Assembly (NCBI GenBank): GCA_023251875.1
Contig: JAHEXY010000001.1
Location: 620,001-684,000, forward strand
Source of the DNA: Bacteroidota bacterium
GTDB taxonomy: Bacteria > Bacteroidota > Bacteroidia > JAHEXY01
Reading direction: 5' to 3'
DNA: 64,000 nt
Of the stretch, positions 6,585-60,405 are shown piece after piece; the first letter of the stretch is position 1, and each line of letters opens with the position of its first letter. The position numbers and the translations under genes were made by a program. The notes under the pieces are model-generated. The model was not told the origin of the DNA and made no database searches. It saw only the letters and a program-made list of their open reading frames with translations.

Positions 6585-7494
6585 AGAATGGAATTCGTTT
6601 TCCATCAGCAGCTATTTGAGTATTTTCAAATACAGGACAAGCTTCTTGCAAAAATTCATCAAAGGAGGCATAGCGTGAAGAAAAATGACCAATTACCAAT
6701 TGTTTCACATTAGCCATTTTAGCAATATTGGCAGCTTGTGCAGCTGTTGTATGATACGTTTGTTTGGCTAATTCACTAAGGTTAGAAAGAAAAGTAGCTT
6801 CATGATAGAGAAGGTCTACATTTTTAATTTGTTCAATAATGGATTCTTTATAAATAGTATCGGAGCAAAATGCATAAGATTTTGGCTTAGGGGGCTCAAT
6901 GGTAAGTTCTTTGTTTGAAATAAATTTTCCATCAGTACTTAAAAAATCAGCTCCGGCTTTTATATTGGCTACTTCTTTAAGAGGGATTTGATATTGCTGA
7001 ATTTTTTCTCGAATGATATTTCTTTGCTTGGATTTTTCTCTAAAAATAAAGCCACAACAATGAACACGATGTTTAAGGATAATGGTTTCAACGGTATAGC
7101 GCCTGTCATCTACTATCACTTTTGATTGATCGTATGATAAAGGTGTAAACTCAATTTTATAGCCAATATAATGATCGGCTAGTTTCATTTGAAAATCGAG
7201 TAATTCCTTTAATTGTGGTGGTCCGTATATGTATAATGGATTTTTTCTACCTAAAAGATTAAGTGTGGAAATTAATCCAATAAGCCCAAAATAATGATCG
7301 CCATGCAAATGAGAAATAAAAATATGGTTTATTCTTGTAAAGCGAAGCTTGTACCGTTTCAATTGTATTTGTGTACCTTCTCCACAATCAATTAAAAAGA
7401 ATTTTTCTCCAAAATTTAAAAAATGTGCAGTTGGATTTCGGTTAGCAGTGGGTACTGCTGAGCCGCTTCCAAGAATAGTAAGTTCAAAGTTCAA
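6583..7494 (-). CDS. rnz: Ribonuclease Z (tRNA 3' processing endonuclease)
   Basis: The 303-residue metallo-beta-lactamase-fold protein has the zinc motif HLHGDH (H62, H64, D66, H67), an opening LTILGSGSAVPT typical of RNase Z, and later metal ligands in FCSDT and IGHFSSRY. It cuts the 3' trailer of tRNA precursors in the cytoplasm. Length and domain order are normal. It is transcribed away from the response regulator's operator and has no obvious operon partner. Confidence 0.95.
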   Translation of the reverse strand: MNFELTILGSGSAVPTANRNPTAHFLNFGEKFFLIDCGEGTQIQLKRYKLRFTRINHIFISHLHGDHYFGLIGLISTLNLLGRKNPLYIYGPPQLKELLDFQMKLADHYIGYKIEFTPLSYDQSKVIVDDRRYTVETIILKHRVHCCGFIFREKSKQRNIIREKIQQYQIPLKEVANIKAGADFLSTDGKFISNKELTIEPPKPKSYAFCSDTIYKESIIEQIKNVDLLYHEATFLSNLSELAKQTYHTTAAQAANIAKMANVKQLVIGHFSSRYASFDEFLQEACPVFENTQIAADGKRIPF

Positions 7495-7536
7495 GGTTCC
7501 AAATTTGGATTTAATTTTCGTATTTGACTAGATTAA

Positions 7537-8310
7537 CTAATTGAGATAAATTTTTCCGGATGCAAGATTCTTATCATCATGCATTGAATAAAATACAATA
7601 CCGTGAATGGTTTTAGGTAATTGAAATAAATTAGAGCCTTTCATTGCTTCAATATCTATAGCATAAACTTTTTGCCCGAGTGCATCATATAAATCAAAAG
7701 TATACTTGCTTTTTTGAGGAGAGAAGAATTCTATTTTATTTTGATAAAAAGAAGTTATGTGCAATGCTTCCTCATTAACTGTATTGATTCCATTTGAGCT
7801 AGGGCGTACATACAGTTGATATCCTGAGGCAGGATAGGGAAAAGATTGAGCTCCTAAACCATAATCAGAAAGATCTATTCCTACAGTTAAATTAACAGTT
7901 AAATCATAGGTTTGATTACTCATGGATTGGTTGGGAGTTCCGGTAATAACCAAACATCCTGTTTCTCCTGTAGCATACACGCAATTGGTATTACTGCATT
8001 GGTAAGATAAAGTAGAGGGCAAGCCATCAATACCGTCAACTGTGAAAGAACTTACATTTACCGGTACAACCAGTGAGAAAGGAAATCCAAAATCAGCAAT
8101 ATCAATTGAGGTGTCTTTTGGAACAATAACGGTAAGGGTTTGGCTGTATGATTTATTTACTACAGCATCATCTATGCCGGTAGTGGCATCAGGCCAAATG
8201 CCGGGTATGGCTAATAAAGAATAGATGAAATCAGGATTGCATTGTGAATAAACGGTATTAAGTGAACAACAAAGAAAAATAATCGATGATAAATGTTTTA
8301 AATTCTTCAT
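7537..8310 (-). CDS. Secreted protein with T9SS type A sorting domain (paralogue 1)
   Basis: The 257-residue protein has an N-terminal Sec signal ending VYSQ, a beta-rich middle with paired cysteines, and a C-terminal segment (FELYDALGQK-like: FDLYDALGQKVYAID, ending ASGKIYLN) that looks like a type IX secretion sorting domain. It is paralogous to the next gene (8449-9171): both share DAxVNxxYxQT, VIPKDT and GLPS followed by a cysteine cluster and ITGTP/LIGTP. The cargo would be exported through the outer membrane. Its function is unknown. Confidence 0.8.
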   Translation of the reverse strand: MKNLKHLSSIIFLCCSLNTVYSQCNPDFIYSLLAIPGIWPDATTGIDDAVVNKSYSQTLTVIVPKDTSIDIADFGFPFSLVVPVNVSSFTVDGIDGLPSTLSYQCSNTNCVYATGETGCLVITGTPNQSMSNQTYDLTVNLTVGIDLSDYGLGAQSFPYPASGYQLYVRPSSNGINTVNEEALHITSFYQNKIEFFSPQKSKYTFDLYDALGQKVYAIDIEAMKGSNLFQLPKTIHGIVFYSMHDDKNLASGKIYLN

Positions 8311-48595: not shown

Positions 48596-51500
48596 ATGGC
48601 AAACGACAGGAGAAGTTTCTTAAAAAATATTACGCTTACGGGAGCAGGTGCATTTGCACTTTCTCAAATGAATTTGGATGGCTTCAATAAAGCATTTGCA
48701 TATTTTGAACCCATGGATATTAAAAATCCATTAGCTGCATATCCAGATAGAGAGTGGGAAAAAGTGTATAGAGATTTATGGAAATACGATAGTGAATTTT
48801 CATTTCTCTGCGCACCTAATGATACGCATAATTGCCTTTTAACAGCACATGTAAAAAACAATACTATTGTTAGAATTGCTCCTAGTTATGGATTTTCAAA
48901 GGCAGGTGATCTGCAAGGCAATACCGCATCTGCCAGATGGGAGCCTAGATGTTGTCAAAAAGGTTTGGCTTTGTCGAGGCGTTTTTATGGTGATAGGCGC
49001 ATTAAATATCCTGTAATTCGCGAAGGTTATTTGCAATGGATTAAAGATGGTTTCCCAAGAGAAAAAAATGGACGCATTCCGCTTAAATATGTGCAAAGAG
49101 GTAAAGAGGCTTTTGTTAAAATTTCTTGGGATGAAATTTTTCAATATGCCGCAAAAGCTTATGTAAATATTGCTACAACTTATACCGGAAAAGAAGGCTC
49201 AAAATTATTAGAAGAACAAGGTTATGATAAAGAAATGGTTGAAGCCACACACGGACAAGGTGTACAAACTTTAAAATTCAGAGGCGGAATGGCTGCTTTA
49301 GGTGTTACCAGAATTTTTGCCATGAATCGTTTAGCAAATTCATTTGCACTTCTAGATTCTAAGATCAGAGGCGTTGGGCCCGATGAAGCGCATGGCGCCC
49401 GTGGTTGGGATAGTTATGCATGGCATACCGATCTTCCTCCCGGGCATCCAATGGTTACCGGCCAACAAACAGTCGATTTTGATTTGTCTTGTGTTGAATA
49501 CTCTAACAATATTATTGTTTGGGGTATGAATTGGATTACTACCAAAATGCCCGATGCGCATTGGTTAACCGAAGCGCGCTTAAAAGGCGCAAAAGTTACG
49601 GTTATAGCTTGTGAATACAGTGCTACCTCAAATAAAGCAGATAATGTTTTAATTGTTCGCCCTGGAGTAACGCCTGCATTGGCTTTGGGTTTTGCAAATG
49701 TTATCATTAATGAAAAATTATATGATGCTGAATACATATCTAAATATACCGATATGCCATTCTTAGTTAGAATGGATACACAGCAATTTTTAAAACCTAA
49801 CGAAGTAGATAAAGAATATAAATTAAAAGATTTAACGGGATATATTAAAGTAATGAAAACGGGTGAAAAGCCTGATCCTAGCTTTAAGCAACCGAATCAA
49901 TACGTAACAGAAGAGCTGCGTAATGAGTGGGGAGATTTTATGATTTGGGATAGCAAAAAAAATGCAGCTACTCCAATTTGCAGAGACGATTATGGAAAAA
50001 CAATGGTTGATAATGGTTTTTCTCCTGTTTTGGAAGGTTCTTTTAAAGTAAAATTAGCTGATGGAAAAGAAATAGAAGTAAGACCTGTTTTCGATTTAAT
50101 TAAAAAATATGTAGTTGAAAATTTCGATCCCCAAACGGTAGAAGAAATGACATGGGCTCCTAAAGACGGCATTCTTTCTATTGCCAGAGATATTGCTAAA
50201 AATAGTGGTAGCACATTATTTTGCATGGGCATGGGGCCAAATCAGATGTTCAATAATGATTTAAAAGATAGAACAGTATTGCTGCTTGCTGCCCTTACAA
50301 AAAATATTGGTCGTGTAGGAGGTAATGTGGGTAGTTTTGCAGGAAATTACCGAGCTGCATTTTTCTCCGGTATTCCATCTTATATTCTCGAAAATCCATT
50401 TAACATTCAAATGGATCCTACACAACCATCTGAGATAAAAAAATATTTCTCTTATGAATCTGCTCACTATTTTAATAGTGGTGATAAGATTTTAAAAATG
50501 GGCGACAATGTAATTACAGGTAAAACGCACATGCCTACGCCTACAAAATCTATTCTAGTTTCGAACGGAAATTCATTGTTGGGTAATTCAAAAGGGCATT
50601 ATGAAAATTTAATAAATGTTTATCCTAAGATTGAGTTGATTGGGGTTTGCGATTGGTGGTGGACAGCTTCTTGCGAAAATGCAGATATTGTTTTCCCTGT
50701 CGATTCGTGGGGAGAATTTAAATCTCCTGATGCAACCATGTCTGTTACCAATCCATTCCTTTATATTTATCCAAGAACTCCAATGCAAAGAATTTTTGAT
50801 ACCAAAGGCGACATAGAGGTTGTTGCAGGTATTGCAAAAGCATTAGGAACTGAAACCGGTGATAATAGATTTGTTGACTACTTTAAATTTTCTCATGAAG
50901 GCAAGCCCGAAGTTTATTTACAGCGTGTGTTTAATGCATCCCCAACCACTAAAGGATTTAAAGTAGAAGAATTAGAGGCCAATGCTCAAAAAGGAATTCC
51001 TGCATTGCTCATGTCACGTACTTATCCAAAATATGTGGGCTACGAACAAACCGAAGAAAATAAACAATGGTATACCAAAACAGGTAGAATGGAATTTTTT
51101 AGGGATGAAAAAGAATTTAAAGCTGCCGGGGAAACCATTCCTATTCATAGAGAACCTATTGATTCTACTTTTTACGAACCCAATGTAATTGTTAGTAAAT
51201 CTCATCCTTCAATTAATCCAACTACTCCCGATCAATATGGAGTTTCAAAAGATAATTTGTCAACCGATGTTCGCCAAGGAAGAAATGTAGTAAAACCTTG
51301 GACAGAATTAAAACTTACCACGCATCCATTAACAAAACAAGACAGTAAGTTTAAGTTTATTTTCCACACGCCTAAATACAGGCATGGCGCGCATACAACC
51401 CCTGTGGATACAGATATTCTTGCAGTATGGTTTGGTCCTTACGGAGATATTCACCGTACAGATAAACGTATGCCTTATGTAACGGAAATGTATATTGATA

Positions 51501-52075
51501 TTAATCCTCTTGATGCAAAAGAATTGGGTTTAGAAGATGGAGATTATTGTTATGTAGATGCAGATCCACAAGATCGCCCATTTAGAGGATGGCAAGATAA
51601 TAAAGACAGCGAAGAATATAAGCTTGCGCGATTAATGGTTCGTGTGCGCTATTACCCGGGCACACCAAGAGGTGTAACACGTATGTGGCACAATGCTTAT
51701 GGCGCAACATTTGGTTCAATTAGAGGCGCAAAAATTAATCCAACCGGTTTAGCAAAAAATCCATTAACCAATTACCAAGCCATGTTCCGTTTTGGTTCTC
51801 ACCAAAGTTGTACGAGAGGATGGTTAAAACCTACTTGGATGACTGATTCATTGGTACGTAAAAATCATTTCGGTCAACAAATTGCAAAAGGTTTTGAATT
51901 AGATGTGCATGGCGCAACGGGTGCTCCGCGTGAGTCGTTTGTAAAAATTGAATTTGCTGAAAAAGGTGGATTAAATGGAGAAGGAAATTGGCGACCAACC
52001 GATTTAAAAATCAGGCCTACTTACGAAAGCGATGATTTTAAAAAATTTATGCAAGGAGGATTTGTAAAAGTATAA
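48596..52075 (+). CDS. Periplasmic molybdenum oxidoreductase catalytic subunit, NarG/NxrA-like (DMSO reductase type II family)
   Basis: The 1159-residue protein begins with a Tat signal (DRRSFLKNITLTGAGAFA), so the active site faces the periplasm. The Fe-S region has C72, D76, H78, C80 and C120 where NarG has His, Cys, Cys, Cys, so cluster FS0 has a changed ligand set. The molybdenum-ligand region reads GQQTVDFD (D294/D296). By memory the NPLAAYPDREWEKVYRD start, length and QTxDxD motif resemble nitrite oxidoreductase NxrA and periplasmic Nar enzymes more than the 900-aa chlorate, selenate or ethylbenzene enzymes. Either nitrate reduction or nitrite oxidation fits; the nosZ context favours nitrate reduction. 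Four genes for its partners follow directly. Confidence 0.85.
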   Translation: MANDRRSFLKNITLTGAGAFALSQMNLDGFNKAFAYFEPMDIKNPLAAYPDREWEKVYRDLWKYDSEFSFLCAPNDTHNCLLTAHVKNNTIVRIAPSYGFSKAGDLQGNTASARWEPRCCQKGLALSRRFYGDRRIKYPVIREGYLQWIKDGFPREKNGRIPLKYVQRGKEAFVKISWDEIFQYAAKAYVNIATTYTGKEGSKLLEEQGYDKEMVEATHGQGVQTLKFRGGMAALGVTRIFAMNRLANSFALLDSKIRGVGPDEAHGARGWDSYAWHTDLPPGHPMVTGQQTVDFDLSCVEYSNNIIVWGMNWITTKMPDAHWLTEARLKGAKVTVIACEYSATSNKADNVLIVRPGVTPALALGFANVIINEKLYDAEYISKYTDMPFLVRMDTQQFLKPNEVDKEYKLKDLTGYIKVMKTGEKPDPSFKQPNQYVTEELRNEWGDFMIWDSKKNAATPICRDDYGKTMVDNGFSPVLEGSFKVKLADGKEIEVRPVFDLIKKYVVENFDPQTVEEMTWAPKDGILSIARDIAKNSGSTLFCMGMGPNQMFNNDLKDRTVLLLAALTKNIGRVGGNVGSFAGNYRAAFFSGIPSYILENPFNIQMDPTQPSEIKKYFSYESAHYFNSGDKILKMGDNVITGKTHMPTPTKSILVSNGNSLLGNSKGHYENLINVYPKIELIGVCDWWWTASCENADIVFPVDSWGEFKSPDATMSVTNPFLYIYPRTPMQRIFDTKGDIEVVAGIAKALGTETGDNRFVDYFKFSHEGKPEVYLQRVFNASPTTKGFKVEELEANAQKGIPALLMSRTYPKYVGYEQTEENKQWYTKTGRMEFFRDEKEFKAAGETIPIHREPIDSTFYEPNVIVSKSHPSINPTTPDQYGVSKDNLSTDVRQGRNVVKPWTELKLTTHPLTKQDSKFKFIFHTPKYRHGAHTTPVDTDILAVWFGPYGDIHRTDKRMPYVTEMYIDINPLDAKELGLEDGDYCYVDADPQDRPFRGWQDNKDSEEYKLARLMVRVRYYPGTPRGVTRMWHNAYGATFGSIRGAKINPTGLAKNPLTNYQAMFRFGSHQSCTRGWLKPTWMTDSLVRKNHFGQQIAKGFELDVHGATGAPRESFVKIEFAEKGGLNGEGNWRPTDLKIRPTYESDDFKKFMQGGFVKV

Positions 52076-52093
52076 TTACAATTCCAAACTTAA

Positions 52094-52112
52094 CCTCTCC
52101 CCTTGGGAGAGG
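52094..52112. repeat. Hairpin CCTCTCCC-CTT-GGGAGAGG between alpha and beta subunit genes
   Basis: A perfect 8-bp stem with a 3-base loop, followed by AGTAAGGTGAGG, in the gap between the two subunit genes. It is related to the core of the dispersed repeat family but lacks the outer inverted repeats. Confidence 0.6.
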
Positions 52113-52171
52113 AGTAAGGTGAGGGCATAAAAAAAGATTAAATAAAAATTATTTACTAAAAATATTGATCT

Positions 52172-53305
52172 ATGGCACAAGTAAAAAATTGGCACTTAAA
52201 TCGCGAAATGAAATATCCTTATGCTGATAACAGGCCTAAGAAACAAATAGCCTATATTTTTGATACCAATAAATGTATCGCTTGTCAAACTTGTACTGTG
52301 GCTTGCAAAACCACATGGACATCGGGCAAAGGACAAGAATATATGTTTTGGAATAATGTTGAAACCAAACCCTATGGCAGCTATCCAACGCAATGGGATG
52401 TAAATCTTTTAAAACAATTAGACGGTCAAGAATGGGATAAAACTACCGGAACATATAAAGGAAAAACCATTTTTGAAGCAGCTGAAAAAGGAGAGAATGT
52501 AAAAGGATGGCATCCTACTGATAGAGATTATGCCTACCCCAATTTAGGTGAAGATGAATGTTCGGGTAACGTAAATAAAGGTGCGTTTTTTTCAGGCATA
52601 CATGATGTGTGGATGTTTTATTTGGCAAGAATTTGTAACCATTGTACCTATCCGGGTTGTGTAGCAGCTTGCCCTAGAAAAGCCATTTATAAACGACCGG
52701 AAGATGGCATTGTTTTAATTGATGAATCTCGTTGTAGAGGATATAAAGAGTGCGTGAAAGCTTGCCCGTATAAAAAAACATTTTTTAATGAGGTAACGCG
52801 CATTTCTGAAAAATGTATAGGATGTTATCCTCTTATTGAAAAAGGAGAACAGCCGAGATGTGTTCAAACTTGTATTGGTAAAATTCGTATGCAAGGTTTT
52901 TTAAGCAAGCCCGAAGAAGCCAGAGCAGATAATCCAATTGATCAAATTGTGCACATTAAAAAAGTGGCATTGCCGCTTTATCCTCAATACGGAACGGAAC
53001 CTAATGTATACTACATTCCTCCTGTTCATGTGCCAAAAGAATTTTTACATCAGTTGTTTGGCCCAGGTGTTGACAAGGCAATTGAAACGTATAAAAACAT
53101 CAAAAACGATAAAGATTTATTAGGCGCATTTTTACTTTTTGGCAATACTCCAAAAATCACACATTCATATAAAACAGATGGAGAATTTACAATGGGTTTT
53201 GATGAAAAAGGAGAAGTAACCACTAAAGTTCCATTAACAGAGCCTGTTTTTGTTCGTCCATTTAAAAATGAAACAACAGGAGCCAATCATCATAATATTC
53301 CGTAA
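52172..53305 (+). CDS. Iron-sulfur (beta) subunit of the molybdoenzyme, NarH/NxrB-like
   Basis: The 377-residue protein has four Fe-S motifs: C35-x2-C-x2-C-x3-C (CIACQTCTVACK), CNHCTYPGCVAACP, CRGYKECVKACP, and CIGCYPLIEKGEQPRCVQTC. In the third motif the fourth cysteine position is Tyr, as expected for a 3Fe-4S cluster in the type II family (NarH has Trp). It has no signal peptide and would be carried out with the Tat-exported alpha subunit. It transfers electrons between the heme-b subunit and the catalytic subunit. Confidence 0.92.
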   Translation: MAQVKNWHLNREMKYPYADNRPKKQIAYIFDTNKCIACQTCTVACKTTWTSGKGQEYMFWNNVETKPYGSYPTQWDVNLLKQLDGQEWDKTTGTYKGKTIFEAAEKGENVKGWHPTDRDYAYPNLGEDECSGNVNKGAFFSGIHDVWMFYLARICNHCTYPGCVAACPRKAIYKRPEDGIVLIDESRCRGYKECVKACPYKKTFFNEVTRISEKCIGCYPLIEKGEQPRCVQTCIGKIRMQGFLSKPEEARADNPIDQIVHIKKVALPLYPQYGTEPNVYYIPPVHVPKEFLHQLFGPGVDKAIETYKNIKNDKDLLGAFLLFGNTPKITHSYKTDGEFTMGFDEKGEVTTKVPLTEPVFVRPFKNETTGANHHNIP

Positions 53306-53330
53306 AGTTATGGAGATAAAAATTAGTTAT

Positions 53331-53420
53331 GGGCAGTTCTTAAAATTACAATTTGTGTCCCTCTCATGGAGAGGGATTAAGGGAGAGGGAACTAAAAAAT
53401 ATAATTTTTAGAACTGCCCT
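53331..53420 (+). repeat. Dispersed palindromic repeat, copy D
   Basis: Ends GGGCAGTTCTTAAAATT and AATTTTTAGAACTGCCC are inverted repeats; the core is TCCCTCTC-ATGGAGAGGGA followed by TTAAGGGAGAGG. It lies between the beta and gamma subunit genes. Confidence 0.88.
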
Positions 53421-53462
53421 TATGGTATTGAAAGTAAAATTTAATTCTAATACACATTCAAA

Positions 53463-54341
53463 ATGAAAAAAATAATTCTTCTAAGTTTAGCAATAACAAC
53501 AAGTATTTTGTTGCATGCTCAAAATGGTGTTCCCATTACCTCTGTTAAAGTTTCCGGTATTCCGGCTCGAGATGCCAAAAGTGATATTTGGAATAATGCA
53601 CAAGTATCTGTGATACCTGTGATGCCTCAAAATGTAACCAATCCGCAATTACTAAAAGCTTCAGTTGCTAACGTAAAAGTAAAAAGTATTAATGATGGTA
53701 ATAAAATTGCATTTTTAATTGAATGGACAGATTCAACAAGAGATGCTACTGTTGATGTAGACAAATTTAGTGATCAGGTTGCTTTGCAATTGCCATTAAA
53801 TCCTGATACGGTTCCGAATTTTATGATGGGACAAAAAAAAGGCAGAGTACACATTATTCATTGGAAAGCTGTTTGGCAAGATGATATTGAAAAAGGATTT
53901 CAAGATGTAAAAACGGCTCATCCTAATTATTGGGCAGATATTTATTATTTCCAAGAAAAAAATGCGGATGGAACTACAACAGCAGCAAAAGATGCAACGG
54001 TTGATCAATTTAAATCTAAAGAAGCTAAAAATTATATGGCAGGTGCTTATGCCGGAAATCCCATGTCAATTTTCGATCGTAAAGAACCCGTTGAAGAAAC
54101 CTTGGCCGAAGGCTATGGAACACTTACAACACAGGAAAAACAAGATGCTACAGCTTGGGGTGTTTGGGAAAACAATACATGGAAAGTAATTATTGTTCGT
54201 TCATTGGTTTCTACAGATCCACTTGATGCGCCACTAGTAAAGAATACACAAATTTGTTTTGCAGTATGGAATGGAACATTTAAAAATGTTGGAGCTAAAA
54301 AACATTACAGCATGTGGAATGATTTAATTATTGCCAAATAA
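53463..54341 (+). CDS. Heme-b-binding gamma subunit (ethylbenzene dehydrogenase gamma-like)
   Basis: The 292-residue protein has a Sec signal ending LLHAQ and the beta-sandwich pattern of the type II gamma subunit (SVKVSGIPARDAKSDIWNN, VKSINDGNKIAFLIEWTDST, FMMGQKKGRVHIIHWKA, VIIVRSLVS). Family members bind one heme b through Met and Lys and pass electrons from the beta subunit to a soluble or membrane cytochrome. Unlike NarI it has no membrane helices, so the enzyme is soluble and needs a cytochrome c partner. The cytochrome at 58890 is a candidate. Confidence 0.85.
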   Translation: MKKIILLSLAITTSILLHAQNGVPITSVKVSGIPARDAKSDIWNNAQVSVIPVMPQNVTNPQLLKASVANVKVKSINDGNKIAFLIEWTDSTRDATVDVDKFSDQVALQLPLNPDTVPNFMMGQKKGRVHIIHWKAVWQDDIEKGFQDVKTAHPNYWADIYYFQEKNADGTTTAAKDATVDQFKSKEAKNYMAGAYAGNPMSIFDRKEPVEETLAEGYGTLTTQEKQDATAWGVWENNTWKVIIVRSLVSTDPLDAPLVKNTQICFAVWNGTFKNVGAKKHYSMWNDLIIAK

Positions 54342-54361
54342 ATAATTTTAAAATCAAAAAA

Positions 54362-54955
54362 ATGACAACTAAAAATCTTGTTAAAGCCGATTTGTACAGA
54401 ATAATTTCAAGAGGATTATCTTATCCAATAGAAGAAAATATCGGATTGATTAAAAACAGTATTACTGAACTTATTACTAGTAATACTATTGAAACTGATT
54501 TGCAAAATATTTTAAATTCCATATATCAATATGCCGATCTTAAAGAATTGCAACTTATTTTTTCTCGTTCTTTAATGAAAGGCACTCCTCCTACTACCGA
54601 AAGTTATTGTACTCAAAACGCAAATTCATTTAGTGATGTTGCTGCATTTTACAGTGCCTTTGGCATGAAAGCAAAAACAGGTGATGCGCCTGATGCTATA
54701 ACGTATGAAACGGAATTTCTTTCTTTGCTTCTTGTAAAATATGAAATAGCAAAAGATGCAGAACAAAAAGAAATTACGCATGCTGCTTATATAAAATTTT
54801 TAGATGAACATTTTAATGCATTCTCAGAAAAATATCTCGAAAAATTAAAACAAGCAGATTTGCATGAATATTATAATGCGATGGCAGATTTATTAGCATA
54901 TTTAGCTACTGAAGAAAAAGAATTGCTTAGTAATTTTAAAACAATAAATGTATGA
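54362..54955 (+). CDS. TorD/DmsD-type chaperone for the molybdoenzyme
   Basis: The 197-residue all-helical protein resembles the TorD/NarJ redox-enzyme chaperones ([18 protein letters not shown] at the start, [18 protein letters not shown] and [12 protein letters not shown] in the middle, [17 protein letters not shown] near the end). It would bind the Tat signal of the catalytic subunit and hold it until the cofactor is inserted. Its stop overlaps the tatA start. Confidence 0.83.
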
Positions 54956-55158: not shown

Positions 55159-56142
55159 ATGCTCATAGATAGTTTTGGCAGGGTACACGATTATTTGAGA
55201 ATTTCACTTTTAGATAGGTGTAATTTCAGATGCACTTATTGCATGCCGCACGATTTACCTAAAGGTAGTTTTGCCTATGCCAAAAGAATGAGTGCCGAAG
55301 AAATTGATTTCATCTCTTCTGTTTTTGTAAACCTTGGAATTAAAAAAATTCGATTAACAGGAGGCGAGCCTTTAATACGTAAAGATGTAGATGCTATTTT
55401 ACTTTCTTTGTCAAAATATCCAATAGAATTAGCTTTAACTACTAATGGCTCTTTACTGCACAAGCATATTGATATTCTAAAACAAGCAGGAATTAAATCA
55501 GTTAATGTGAGCCTTGATTCTTTAGATCCGGAGAAGTTTTATGCAATTACTAAACGAAATGAATTTCATAAAGTATTAGCCAATATTCATCTTTTGCTTC
55601 ATGAAGGTTTTAAAGTAAAATTAAATGCGGTAGTATTGGCAAATGAAAATGAAAACGAAATTTTAAATTTTGTTCAACTAACAAGAGATTGGCCATTGCA
55701 TGTTCGTTTTATTGAATTTATGCCTTTTGATGGAAATAGCTGGAATCAAAATCAAGTGGTGTCTCATAAAAAAATTGTTGATCTCATTCAACACCATTAC
55801 GAAGTAAATAAAATTGAAGATGCTGTGCATGATACCGCAAAAAAATATAAAGTGCCCGGTTATGAAGGTAGCTTTGCTGTAATCAGCACCATTAGTGAGC
55901 CTTTTTGTGGAGACTGCAACAGATTGCGATTAACATCAGATGGAAAACTAAAAAATTGTTTATTCTCCAAAGAAGAAGTAGACTTGTTAAGCCCTTTAAG
56001 AAAAGGCGAAGATATAATTCCATTAATTGAGTCATGTGTGATAGCTAAGAAAGCTGAACGTGGCGGGCAATTTAATTTCGAAAATAAAATTTTACAACCT
56101 CAAACAATTAAAAACAGAAGCATGATTGCCATTGGCGGTTAA
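55159..56142 (+). CDS. moaA: GTP 3',8-cyclase MoaA
   Basis: The 327-residue radical SAM enzyme has the first cluster motif CNFRCTYC (about 21-28), the GGEP motif (LTGGEPLIR), the C-terminal cluster motif [18 protein letters not shown] and the C-terminal double glycine (IAIGG). It performs the first step of molybdenum cofactor synthesis. It ends the plus-strand operon; its stop overlaps the convergent moaC-mogA stop by four bases. Length is normal. Confidence 0.97.
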
Positions 56143-57050
56143 TCATGACTTGCGCCCTTTATAATTCTAAAAATATGCAATACAAAAGGGAATAGTGCAT
56201 CCATTGATTCTTGAGCTCCTCTGGTTGAGCCAGGTAATGTAAAAATGAGTGTTTTTCCTTTTAATCCTGCCACACCTCTCGATAGCATTGAAAATGGAGT
56301 ACGATTTTGTCCATAGTTTCTTGCTGCTTCCATTATTCCGGGAATTTCAACATCTAACATTGGTTTTACAGCTTCTGGAGAAACATCTCTTGGAGAGAGG
56401 CCTGTTCCTCCCGTAATAATTATCAAATCAATATTTGCATTACAATAAACATTTATTTTTTCTTGTATTACATTCACTTCATCGGGTATAATAACATAAT
56501 CTCCAATTGCCACATTGCATTTTTCTAATTTTGCAATAATAGCTTTACCGGCCTTATCTTCTTTTTTACCTGCCGAAATAGAATCGGAACAAACAATTAC
56601 TGCTGCTTTTAAATCTTTCCTAAACTTATCAGTATAGTCAGATTTTCCACCTTTTTTCTCTAATAATTTAATTGATGTAATTTCAATACCTTTATCAATT
56701 GGTTTCAACATATCATACATGGTTAAAGCTACAACAGAAGCTCCATGCATAGCTTCCACTTCAACACCTGTTTTATAGATGGTATCTACTTCAACTCTAA
56801 TAGAAATTTCTAAACCATATATTTCATAACTAACAGCAGTATACTCTATAGGTAATGGATGGCAATCAGGTATTACATCTGAAGTTTTTTTTACAGCAAA
56901 AAGTCCTGCAGTTTTTGCCATTTCAAATACATCTCCCTTAGGTACTTTTTTATTTATTATAGCATTTATTGTTTCCGCAGAACTAACCTTTACAATTGCC
57001 TGGGCAATTGCTTTGCGACATGATATTGTTTTTTGTGTTATATCTACCAT
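56139..57050 (-). CDS. Bifunctional MoaC-MogA/MoaB fusion
   Basis: From the ATG at 57050 (MVDITQKT) the protein has about 303 residues. The first 150 are MoaC (cyclic pyranopterin monophosphate synthase: [41 protein letters not shown]). The rest, after SDYTDKFRK, is MogA/MoaB ([30 protein letters not shown]), which adenylylates molybdopterin. Fusions of the two are known in Bacteroidota. The 57083 start would overlap the upstream gene. It is in one unit with moaE-GNAT and moaD. Confidence 0.92.
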
Positions 57051-57054
57051 CTTT

Positions 57055-57936
57055 TTATTTAGTAAGAATAAAAACTTTTTCACTATGGCATTTAGAATGG
57101 CATTGTTCTATTTTAGTTTCTAGTTGAAAAGGAATTTCATTAGTATTGAAAAATCCTAATTTTTGGAAAAATAAAGGAATAACAGTAGCTAAATAAATCT
57201 TTTTTGAAGTTTGATTCATTAATTGACTAACTATTTTTTTTCCTATTCCATTTTTTCTGTATGATCCAACAACACCAATAGTGCTTATTTCATCAAAATC
57301 AGTATGATGCTTTAATCTTCCAAATCCGATCAATTCTCCATTTAATTTTGCTGTAATAAAATCTTTATGAGATAAATCTTCTGTATCAAGTTTAAATTTA
57401 TTTGCGAGCTCCTTAATTTTATCTAAATCATCCAATATTGAATTTTGATAGCTGACTTTAAGATCAGTATTGGTTTTCCATTGATGCGAATGATCTTCAA
57501 AAATTTCCTTCCCCCAAATGGGAACATTTGATTTTATTTTTTCTACTATTTCACGACAGGCTGTAAAAGCATCGTTACGGTGTTTTGACGATACAAAAAC
57601 AAACAAACAAATTTCTCCTGCCTTTACTTTTCCTAAGCTATGGTAAATATGCATGCAAGTTAAGTCATATTTTCTAAAAGCCTCTTCGCGTATGTTGTGA
57701 AATTCTTGCTCTGCCGTTTCATGGTAAGATGTATATTCTATTGCTGCAACAGTTTTGTCGTTTATTTTATCGGCCCTTACTTGCCCTAGAAAAATATCAT
57801 GTGCGCCAATATTGGTTTTTGCACTATGTTTGGCTATTGCATTTGCTATAAATTCAGGAGTAATAGCCCCTTCAATAAAGACTTTTTTAATTTTAGACGG
57901 TTTATTTTCGGTTGGTATATTTTTAATTTCAGACAT
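57055..57936 (-). CDS. moaE: MoaE fused to a GNAT acetyltransferase domain
   Basis: Residues about 18-155 form MoaE, the large subunit of molybdopterin synthase ([39 protein letters not shown] with K143). Residues about 160-293 form a GNAT-type N-acetyltransferase domain with the acetyl-CoA loop RKNGIGKK (227-234), VVGSY before it, and a final [10 protein letters not shown] cysteine pair (C279, C283). MoaE is normally about 140-150 residues, so this protein is twice the usual size. The frame is continuous. The GNAT substrate is unknown. Confidence 0.88.
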
Positions 57937-57956: not shown

Positions 57957-58190
57957 TTATCCACCAGAAAAAGGTGGTAATAATGCTATTTCATCTCCAT
58001 TATTAAGAATCCTGTTTGTATTATAAATCTTATTATTAATGGATACTTTGTATTTAAAAGATAAAAGCAAATTGTATTTTGAATGAATAACATTTTTTAA
58101 AGTATCAACATCTCTTACATCAGTAAGTATTTCACTTGTTGTATTGCATATTTCAGCAATTCTTCCAAAATATAAAACCTTTATACCCAT
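57957..58190 (-). CDS. moaD: MoaD, molybdopterin synthase sulfur carrier
   Basis: The 77-residue ubiquitin-like protein ends in the required diglycine (LLPPFSGG) and has the beta-grasp pattern (IKVLYFGRIAEICN). Its thiocarboxylated C-terminus gives sulfur to the MoaE partner encoded 20 bases downstream. The start codon abuts a dispersed repeat (copy E). Confidence 0.93.
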   Translation of the reverse strand: MGIKVLYFGRIAEICNTTSEILTDVRDVDTLKNVIHSKYNLLLSFKYKVSINNKIYNTNRILNNGDEIALLPPFSGG

Positions 58191-58318: not shown

Positions 58319-58900
58319 TTATTTATAATTTGAAATATAATTTAATTCAGTAGGTGTATTGACATTACTCATCAATTGAGGATGGTAAAATAATTCATTA
58401 TTAATTTCAATTTCATGTGTTGAAAGTTGCCCCAATATATTTTTCATTTTTAAGAAATTATTTTTTAGACAAGTCTTTAAAATTGGAAGACAGCTTTTGT
58501 CATAAATTGCACATAATGGTTCAATATCTCCATTATGTGCCAGTAGATTTACTTGCTTTTCCTGAGCGTGTTCAATTAAATACTTTATTAGATGAGCATT
58601 AACAAGAGGCATATCGCAACTTATAACAATATTTTTTTCACTTTTACTATTGCTTAGTGCGGTATATATTCCACCAAGCGGTCCACAATTTGGTATGCTG
58701 TCATTACAAACTTTATAACCTAGTGAAGAATACACTGCAGTATTTGCGCTAATAATAATATCCCTAACACTGGGTTTTAGTGCTTCAATAACATGTTCAA
58801 TAAATGTTTTGTTATTATAAATTAAAAAGGCCTTGTCGGTTCCCATACGAGAACTTTTACCTCCTGCTAAAATAATTCCTGTTAAAGATTTATTTTTCAC
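58319..58900 (-). CDS. mobA: Molybdenum cofactor guanylyltransferase MobA
   Basis: The 193-residue protein has the nucleotidyltransferase opening GIILAGGKSSRMGTDKAF, CGPLGGIYTAL and the metal site SCDMPLV. It adds GMP to the cofactor, giving the bis-MGD form needed by the DMSO reductase family, which fits the catalytic gene nearby. It overlaps the cytochrome c gene upstream by 11 bases, suggesting co-transcription. The pathway so far: MoaA, MoaC, MoaD/E, MogA, MoeA, MobA, complete. Confidence 0.94.
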   Translation of the reverse strand: MKNKSLTGIILAGGKSSRMGTDKAFLIYNNKTFIEHVIEALKPSVRDIIISANTAVYSSLGYKVCNDSIPNCGPLGGIYTALSNSKSEKNIVISCDMPLVNAHLIKYLIEHAQEKQVNLLAHNGDIEPLCAIYDKSCLPILKTCLKNNFLKMKNILGQLSTHEIEINNELFYHPQLMSNVNTPTELNYISNYK

Positions 58901-59646: not shown

Positions 59647-59662
59647 AATGATAAATATCATT
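59647..59662. promoter_or_regulatory. FNR-like operator AATGAT-AAAT-ATCATT
   Basis: A perfect 6+6 palindrome in the gap between the RIC stop and the cytochrome c start (about 90 bases to the latter). Confidence 0.68.
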
Positions 59663-60405
59663 TAGGCAATTTCATTTTCTAATTCAATAGCTCTTGGAAA
59701 GAGAATATTGTTTTCAATATGAATATGCTGGTACAAATCATTTTCAAATTCTTGTAGTTTAGCATATGCTAATTTATATGTAGTACAAGCACCTGCAGGA
59801 GCTGTATAGTTATTTGATAAAGTTCTTATAGAACTCATTAACTCTCCAACATGATCGTGCTCTAATTCCATCATTTCAATAGGGTTTTGAATGGAGCCAA
59901 AATGAGGCAAATGAATTGGTTTTTCATTTTCTTTGGCTATGGCCAATTCCTTTATATAAGGGAATAGCACTTTTTCTTCTTTCATCATGTGAAGGTTAAA
60001 TTCTTCCATCACTTTAATAAAAATATTAGCAATTTCAACTACTTCAGGTTGGGTGTCACCGTGTGCTCTTTCAACTTTTTGAGTATATTCAAATATTAAT
60101 GGCATGGCTTTTACCACATATTTATGATGGGTATTTACAACGTAATCACATAAGAAATCTAAATTCCAACTGTTAAAATCTTGCGATGGCATTGAGGGTT
60201 GTTTATCTATTGCCAGTAAATCTTTTTTAAGAGCATTGAGGTCTACATTCTTGCTTTTACAAACTTGAGATAATGTTCTCTTGCCTCCACAACAAAAATC
60301 AATACCGTATTTTTTAAAAACCTCTGCTTTTCTATAATCTTTACTTACAATTTCACCTACCGTTTGATCAGTTTCTTCGTCTTTCATAAAGTATACAGTT
60401 TCCAT
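59662..60405 (-). CDS. ric: RIC iron-sulfur repair di-iron protein (ScdA/YtfE)
   Basis: The 247-residue protein has the N-terminal ScdA domain with the vicinal cysteines C38-C39 (YGIDFCCGGKRTL) and a C-terminal hemerythrin-like di-iron domain with histidines in VNTHHKY, NLHMMKEEK, LEHDHVGEL and HIHIENNILF. RIC repairs Fe-S clusters damaged by nitric oxide or oxidants. Its place beside the respiratory genes with a palindromic operator centred 80 bases upstream fits NO-linked induction. Confidence 0.94.
   Translation of the reverse strand: METVYFMKDEETDQTVGEIVSKDYRKAEVFKKYGIDFCCGGKRTLSQVCKSKNVDLNALKKDLLAIDKQPSMPSQDFNSWNLDFLCDYVVNTHHKYVVKAMPLIFEYTQKVERAHGDTQPEVVEIANIFIKVMEEFNLHMMKEEKVLFPYIKELAIAKENEKPIHLPHFGSIQNPIEMMELEHDHVGELMSSIRTLSNNYTAPAGACTTYKLAYAKLQEFENDLYQHIHIENNILFPRAIELENEIA

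Follow-up and report, generated by a model that had tools for sequence, protein, structure and literature searches.

MoaE, the catalytic subunit of molybdopterin (MPT) synthase, inserts sulfur into the molybdenum cofactor and is known in several fused or protein-linked forms. In MoaX, a fusion of MoaD and MoaE, MoaD must be cleaved off for action (PMC4326299), and MobB-MoaE and MoaC-MoaE fusions have also been described (PMC11237513, PMC4443979). In Haloferax, the active-site lysine of MoaE is blocked by the Ubl SAMP1 (PMC4443979). A MoaE homologue is physically linked to GNAT-type acetyltransferases in Drosophila, where Mocs2B/dMoaE is found in the ATAC histone acetyltransferase complex, although it is the MBIP part, and not MoaE, that is needed for incorporation (PMC9228816).

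Within the 64,000-nucleotide stretch of DNA analysed here (the window), which comes from a Bacteroidia genome, we observe a moaE reading frame that continues into a complete GNAT domain. The locus is composed of the following genes and domains:

55159–56142, plus strand: moaA, converging on moaC-mogA (profile searches)
56139–57050, minus strand: moaC-mogA(moaB) fusion, next gene downstream (scores over the cut-off of NCBIfam PRK03604)
57055–57936, minus strand: moaE::gnat fusion gene, a single open reading frame of 293 aa, ATG to TAA
57058–57462, minus strand: full-length GNAT domain, residues ~159–293, of a Bacteroidia ArgA-like family (Pfam, family alignment, profile match)
57460–57468, minus strand: junction T-D-L, residues 157–159, where the MoaE relatives end and GNAT begins
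57466–57894, minus strand: complete MoaE domain, residues ~15–157 (Pfam and alignment to relatives)
57957–58190, minus strand: moaD, upstream neighbour (profile searches)
58319–58900, minus strand: mobA, upstream (profile searches)

The initial annotation had described a MoaE followed in frame by a complete second domain, a GNAT, and encoded between moaD and a moaC-mogA fusion, and both statements are borne out. The frame contains no internal stops, and each half matches its Pfam model above the cut-off: PF02391 (MoaE) over residues 31–136 (98.9 bits versus a gathering cut-off of 23.4) and PF00583 (Acetyltransf_1) over residues 185–262 (35.4 versus 20.7 bits), with PF13508 (Acetyltransf_7) also above threshold over the GNAT half (33.6 versus 27). 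On the upstream side lies moaD, while the ATG of moaC-mogA, at 57050, is 4 nt past the moaE::gnat stop. The fusion gene is present as a single copy in the whole genome, on contig C11 (0.83 Mb), within an assembly of 4.8 Mb whose completeness is rated at 100%. Ten close MoaE relatives stop at the equivalent of residue ~156–159, and GNAT relatives begin where the window protein continues; the two halves are thus joined end to end with no linker. Codon usage, trained on the neighbouring genes, favours frame 0 throughout, including across the junction. In the predicted structure, the MoaE half has a pLDDT of about 82–95 over residues 21–150, and the GNAT half has a pLDDT below 50 from an input alignment that consisted of MoaE rows only and had no depth for GNAT.

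When compared to MoaX from M. tuberculosis and D. radiodurans, the window protein is similar in that MoaE is fused to an operon neighbour. However, the partner in MoaX is MoaD, which is cleaved, whereas here it is a C-terminal enzyme whose action does not demand cleavage, and moaD is a gene of its own in the window rather than part of a MoaX-type single chain. The Haloferax MobB-MoaE fusion (cf. PRK14493) likewise places MoaE in a two-domain protein, but there MobB is N-terminal and there is no GNAT. The Drosophila link, which runs via the MBIP sequence in a eukaryotic complex, is a remote parallel to this arrangement.

The N-terminal half is expected to be a normal, dimeric catalytic subunit of MPT synthase that partners MoaD. 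The residues of the cPMP pocket and catalytic site are kept in the alignment, with E. coli R39/H103/R104/K119 corresponding to R54/H119/R120/K135. The window protein thus resembles E. coli MoaE (PF02391; 1fm0) in its complete domain, its pocket residues and its operon context, and differs from it in the added C-terminal GNAT and at the position of K126, a lysine of importance in the E. coli protein, which is G142 (57511–57513) here, followed by K143. A glycine occupies this position in every aligned Bacteroidia MoaE. The MoaE and MoaC-MogA sequences of two Nitrospinota genomes (L002 and L014) are 72–75% identical to those of the window, which suggests horizontal transfer of the moa cluster.

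Elsewhere in the window, a molybdoenzyme operon (48596–54955) encodes an alpha subunit of 1159 aa that has a Tat-type start and is followed by genes for beta, heme-b gamma and chaperone proteins. Along its full length, the alpha subunit matches subunit A of the Kuenenia nitrite oxidoreductase (PDB 7b04, E 3e-265), and chains of the perchlorate reductase type, of ethylbenzene dehydrogenase and of nitrate reductase follow at a great distance. The operon probably encodes an NXR-like enzyme in Bacteroidia. By the moa cluster, we also read a gene for an ScdA/YtfE-like di-iron repair protein (59662–60405), which fits nitrogen-oxide metabolism.

The C-terminal half is a member of a small Bacteroidia family whose proteins are ~140 aa long; it matches them in length and is 31–41% identical to them. 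Taking as the family fingerprint those residues that are conserved in at least 85% of 44 separate members, we obtain L-D, F, F-x-R, E, G-V, R-x-x-G-x-G, I-P-x-x-F, F, P, K and C. The window GNAT keeps 20/21 of these positions, including L183, D184, F193, F205, R207, E216, G221, R227, G230, G232, P254, P269, K275 and C279, with the exception being T292 in place of a C-terminal M. Three features of this half are located as follows:

57289–57291, minus strand: E216, the invariant Glu (family alignment)
57241–57258, minus strand: R227-KNGI-G232, acetyl-CoA pyrophosphate loop R/Q-x-x-G-x-G/A (sequence and family alignment)
57088–57102, minus strand: C279-HSK-C283 (family alignment)

E216 stands where many GNATs carry their general base and, judging from the wider superfamily, would play that role here. 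The loop that was initially annotated as RKNGIG is R227–G232 and fits the R/Q-x-x-G-x-G/A pattern, while the C-terminal CxxxC pair fares less well: C279 and C283 are both present, but they do not constitute a motif. C279 is found in 44/44 separate relatives and is missing in two of the three moa-linked ones described below, while C283 is unconserved. The family thus gives no support for a pair of metal ligands, and we rejected a zinc or metal site on the grounds that C283 is variable and that two of the three moa-linked relatives lack the first cysteine as well.

By profile, the nearest named GNATs are the mycobacterial ArgA and ArsN2, with scores far under the curated cut-offs. The nearest PDB match is the M. 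tuberculosis-type amino-acid acetyltransferase ArgA (5yge/5yo2, E 1e-7), yet the GNAT half scores 32–34 bits against ArgA/PRK07922 (curated cut-off of 180), 29–31 bits against ArsN2 (cut-off of 125) and 18.5 bits against PanM/PanZ, a GNAT-like regulator (cut-off of 68), and it reaches none of the NCBIfam equivalog cut-offs. With its domain match and fingerprint, the C-terminal half is likely to be an active acetyl-CoA-dependent N-acetyltransferase.

To our comparison of MoaE we brought 60 relatives, 395 genomes of the class and 395 of the phylum, in sets that overlap in part; the window's own order is without another genome here, and the nearest relatives are from the same class. Among the matches listed from these three sets, there is no second MoaE-GNAT fusion, and the other MoaE matches either end near residue 150–170 or extend only across stop codons. 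The fusion is likewise absent from plasmids, where 75 records match and none covers 80% of the query. A scan of genome contigs gave 13 close relatives, in all of which MoaE stands without GNAT, and a single weak match to an archaeal MoaE. Two candidate architectures were set aside: an apparent MoaE-MoaC-MogA triple fusion in L017/L151 (a 482-aa open frame) is given as separate genes by the ORF listing, and a match at 4–255 in genome G165 is MoaE followed by another gene, which we read as formate-THF ligase. No GNAT-MoaE fusion was described in the open-licence papers searched. The initial suspicion that the fusion is undescribed therefore appears correct within these listed matches, plasmids and papers, and the combination is not common but confined to this genome among the matches listed. 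Each domain is of a known kind; what is new, within the scope of these comparisons, is that the two are combined.

The GNAT family itself is more widespread. Counting members at E ≤ 1e-15, we find it in 37 other genomes of the class, 21 of which have no MoaE among the matches listed, and its basic reaction is therefore probably not specific to molybdenum or Moco. The family usually occurs as a separate gene, often beside slyD, with this adjacency holding for part of the family only. A conserved slyD-gnat pair, the neighbour being an FKBP-type prolyl isomerase, is seen in four Bacteroidia families (L076, positions 6933–7956; L119; L085; L086). In families f6, f19, f21 and f30, the separate gnat comes after a SlyD-like FKBP gene, and the same loci commonly carry a methionine-aminotransferase-like gene on the opposite strand (both names from sequence reading). 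The slyD-linked GNATs, such as those of L076 and L119, share the full fingerprint and the length of the window GNAT at 31–41% identity, but they are separate genes away from moa, whereas the window GNAT is part of a fusion, and no other family member was found in its genome. It does not lie beside slyD, the homologue of which is on another contig (C22). Apart from the moa-linked members, no moa genes were found near other family members in the neighbourhoods examined, most of which span 3.4 or 14 kb.

A second moa-linked case is found in a single genus, g144, where three genomes (G261, G730 and G731) have moaE, a separate gnat and moaC-mogA in this order, all on one strand. In G261, the operon reads modE-like, mobA, moaD, moaE, gnat, moaC-mogA and moaA (modE and mobA by sequence reading), with gaps of about 71 and 11 nt around gnat. 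No further copy of the family was found in any of the four genomes with a moa-linked gnat. The g144 loci (L148, L156 and L157) thus share with the window the GNAT family and its slot between moaE and moaC-mogA, but their gnat is not fused and their operon is not closely related to the window's. When MoaE and MoaC-MogA are concatenated, the resulting tree rejects a grouping of the window with g144 (lnL difference of 60, p-AU 0.0015), as do separate trees of MoaE (p-AU 0.042) and MoaCB (p-AU 0.0095), and we therefore discarded a common ancestry of the two moaE-moaCB segments. The signal in the GNAT tree is too weak for a decision (p-AU 0.38), and an apparent clade of the four moa-linked GNATs was discarded because it stemmed from a duplicated row. 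With a common origin of the operons rejected, gnat genes of this family either joined the slot on two occasions or were passed on horizontally without the rest of the operon; two separate fillings of the slot are probable. Between the more distant species of g144, GNAT is 43–46% identical and MoaE 84–89%, which indicates that GNAT is under looser constraint and evolves much faster than MoaE. The slot itself is permissive, as relatives carry unrelated insertions between moaE and moaC-mogA: a membrane-protein gene in L007 (4254–4770) and a gene for a four-helix-bundle-like protein in L010 (6432–6936), both read by eye.

On balance, we favour a genuine bifunctional protein derived from fused operon neighbours, in which both enzymes would be active and the GNAT would perform the reaction of its relatives. 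A separate gnat would first have joined the moa operon, taking a place after moaE and before moaC-mogA, and the stop and start that parted it from moaE would then have been lost to give one chain. The GNAT half would acetylate a small amine or amino acid, as its separate relatives would do, and the fusion would couple the amount and place of this activity to cofactor synthesis. The wide, Moco-independent occurrence of the family favours such a substrate, and its two placements beside moaE favour some tie to cofactor synthesis. Two observations count against this explanation: the repeated placement by moaE exceeds what a family-general reaction alone would predict, and the resemblance to ArgA is weak, well under the family cut-offs.

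The initial annotation had proposed that acetylation is connected with cofactor synthesis, or that the GNAT is a protein-acetylating switch that acts on MPT synthase, and we regard this proposal as possible: the same GNAT family lies independently beside moaE in g144, but it is also present in many genomes without a listed MoaE match, is mostly far from moa and evolves fast in g144. In its specific form, the tethered GNAT would acetylate a MoaE lysine (for example, in the K135 region) or MoaD in response to acetyl-CoA, such that MPT synthesis follows carbon status, down or up. We regard this as unlikely, even with a GNAT that is tethered to the catalytic subunit, a relative beside moaE in an operon for which common origin is rejected (p-AU 0.0015), and a precedent in Haloferax, where SAMP1 modification of the active-site lysine K240 of MoaE blocks MPT synthase (PMC4443979). 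The family members in genomes without listed MoaE (21/37) argue against it, the divergence of GNAT relative to MoaE in g144 would be unexpected if GNAT had to recognise MoaE, and the literature searched contained no acetylated MoaE. That the GNAT acetylates MoaE, MoaD or cPMP itself is possible and is not the reading that we favour. In a bolder form, which we consider rather doubtful, the bacterial MPT synthase would contain its own acetyl-CoA-dependent regulator: the GNAT would acetylate MoaE, MoaD or a pterin intermediate and so adjust cofactor output to carbon status, and Bacteroidia would have arrived at this tie between MoaE and a GNAT on two occasions, independently of the fly ATAC complex.

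It is similarly improbable that the fusion is functionally neutral, an unrelated gene having landed in the operon and become fused, with two unrelated jobs and no meaning to their coupling. The unrelated genes in L007 and L010 are consistent with such an event, frameshifts within syntenic blocks have been put forward as a possible source of Moa fusions (PMC11237513), and among the matches listed the fusion is confined to one genome; however, a second lineage has this GNAT family in the same slot, and with one copy per genome such a coincidence is improbable.

Far less credible is an assembly or sequencing error that joined two separate genes: a one-base shift would put a TGA in frame directly after WKTN (codons ..AAT ACT GAT..), some MoaE relatives terminate in WKLNT-stop (L010), and a shortened GNAT could conceivably start at the TTG at residue 168, which is ~9 residues into GNAT and the sole in-frame start near the junction (ATG and GTG being absent), yet the expected GNAT start (residue ~159) has no ATG, GTG or TTG, the junction is not a homopolymer, and both halves are coding in one common frame. 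As no start codon lies at the point where the relatives of the GNAT half begin, an assembly-deleted stop between two separate genes is unlikely, and the moaE::gnat fusion is probably genuine rather than an artefact.

To our knowledge, post-translational control of molybdenum cofactor synthesis is little known in bacteria. Even if there were no coupling between the two halves, the window protein would still be instructive as a gene fusion without functional meaning. With a GNAT fused to MoaE in one lineage and encoded beside moaE in another, it presents a testable case of whether acetyl-CoA may provide an input to the pathway, and it would offer a bacterial counterpart to the puzzling link between MoaE and acetyltransferases in animals.
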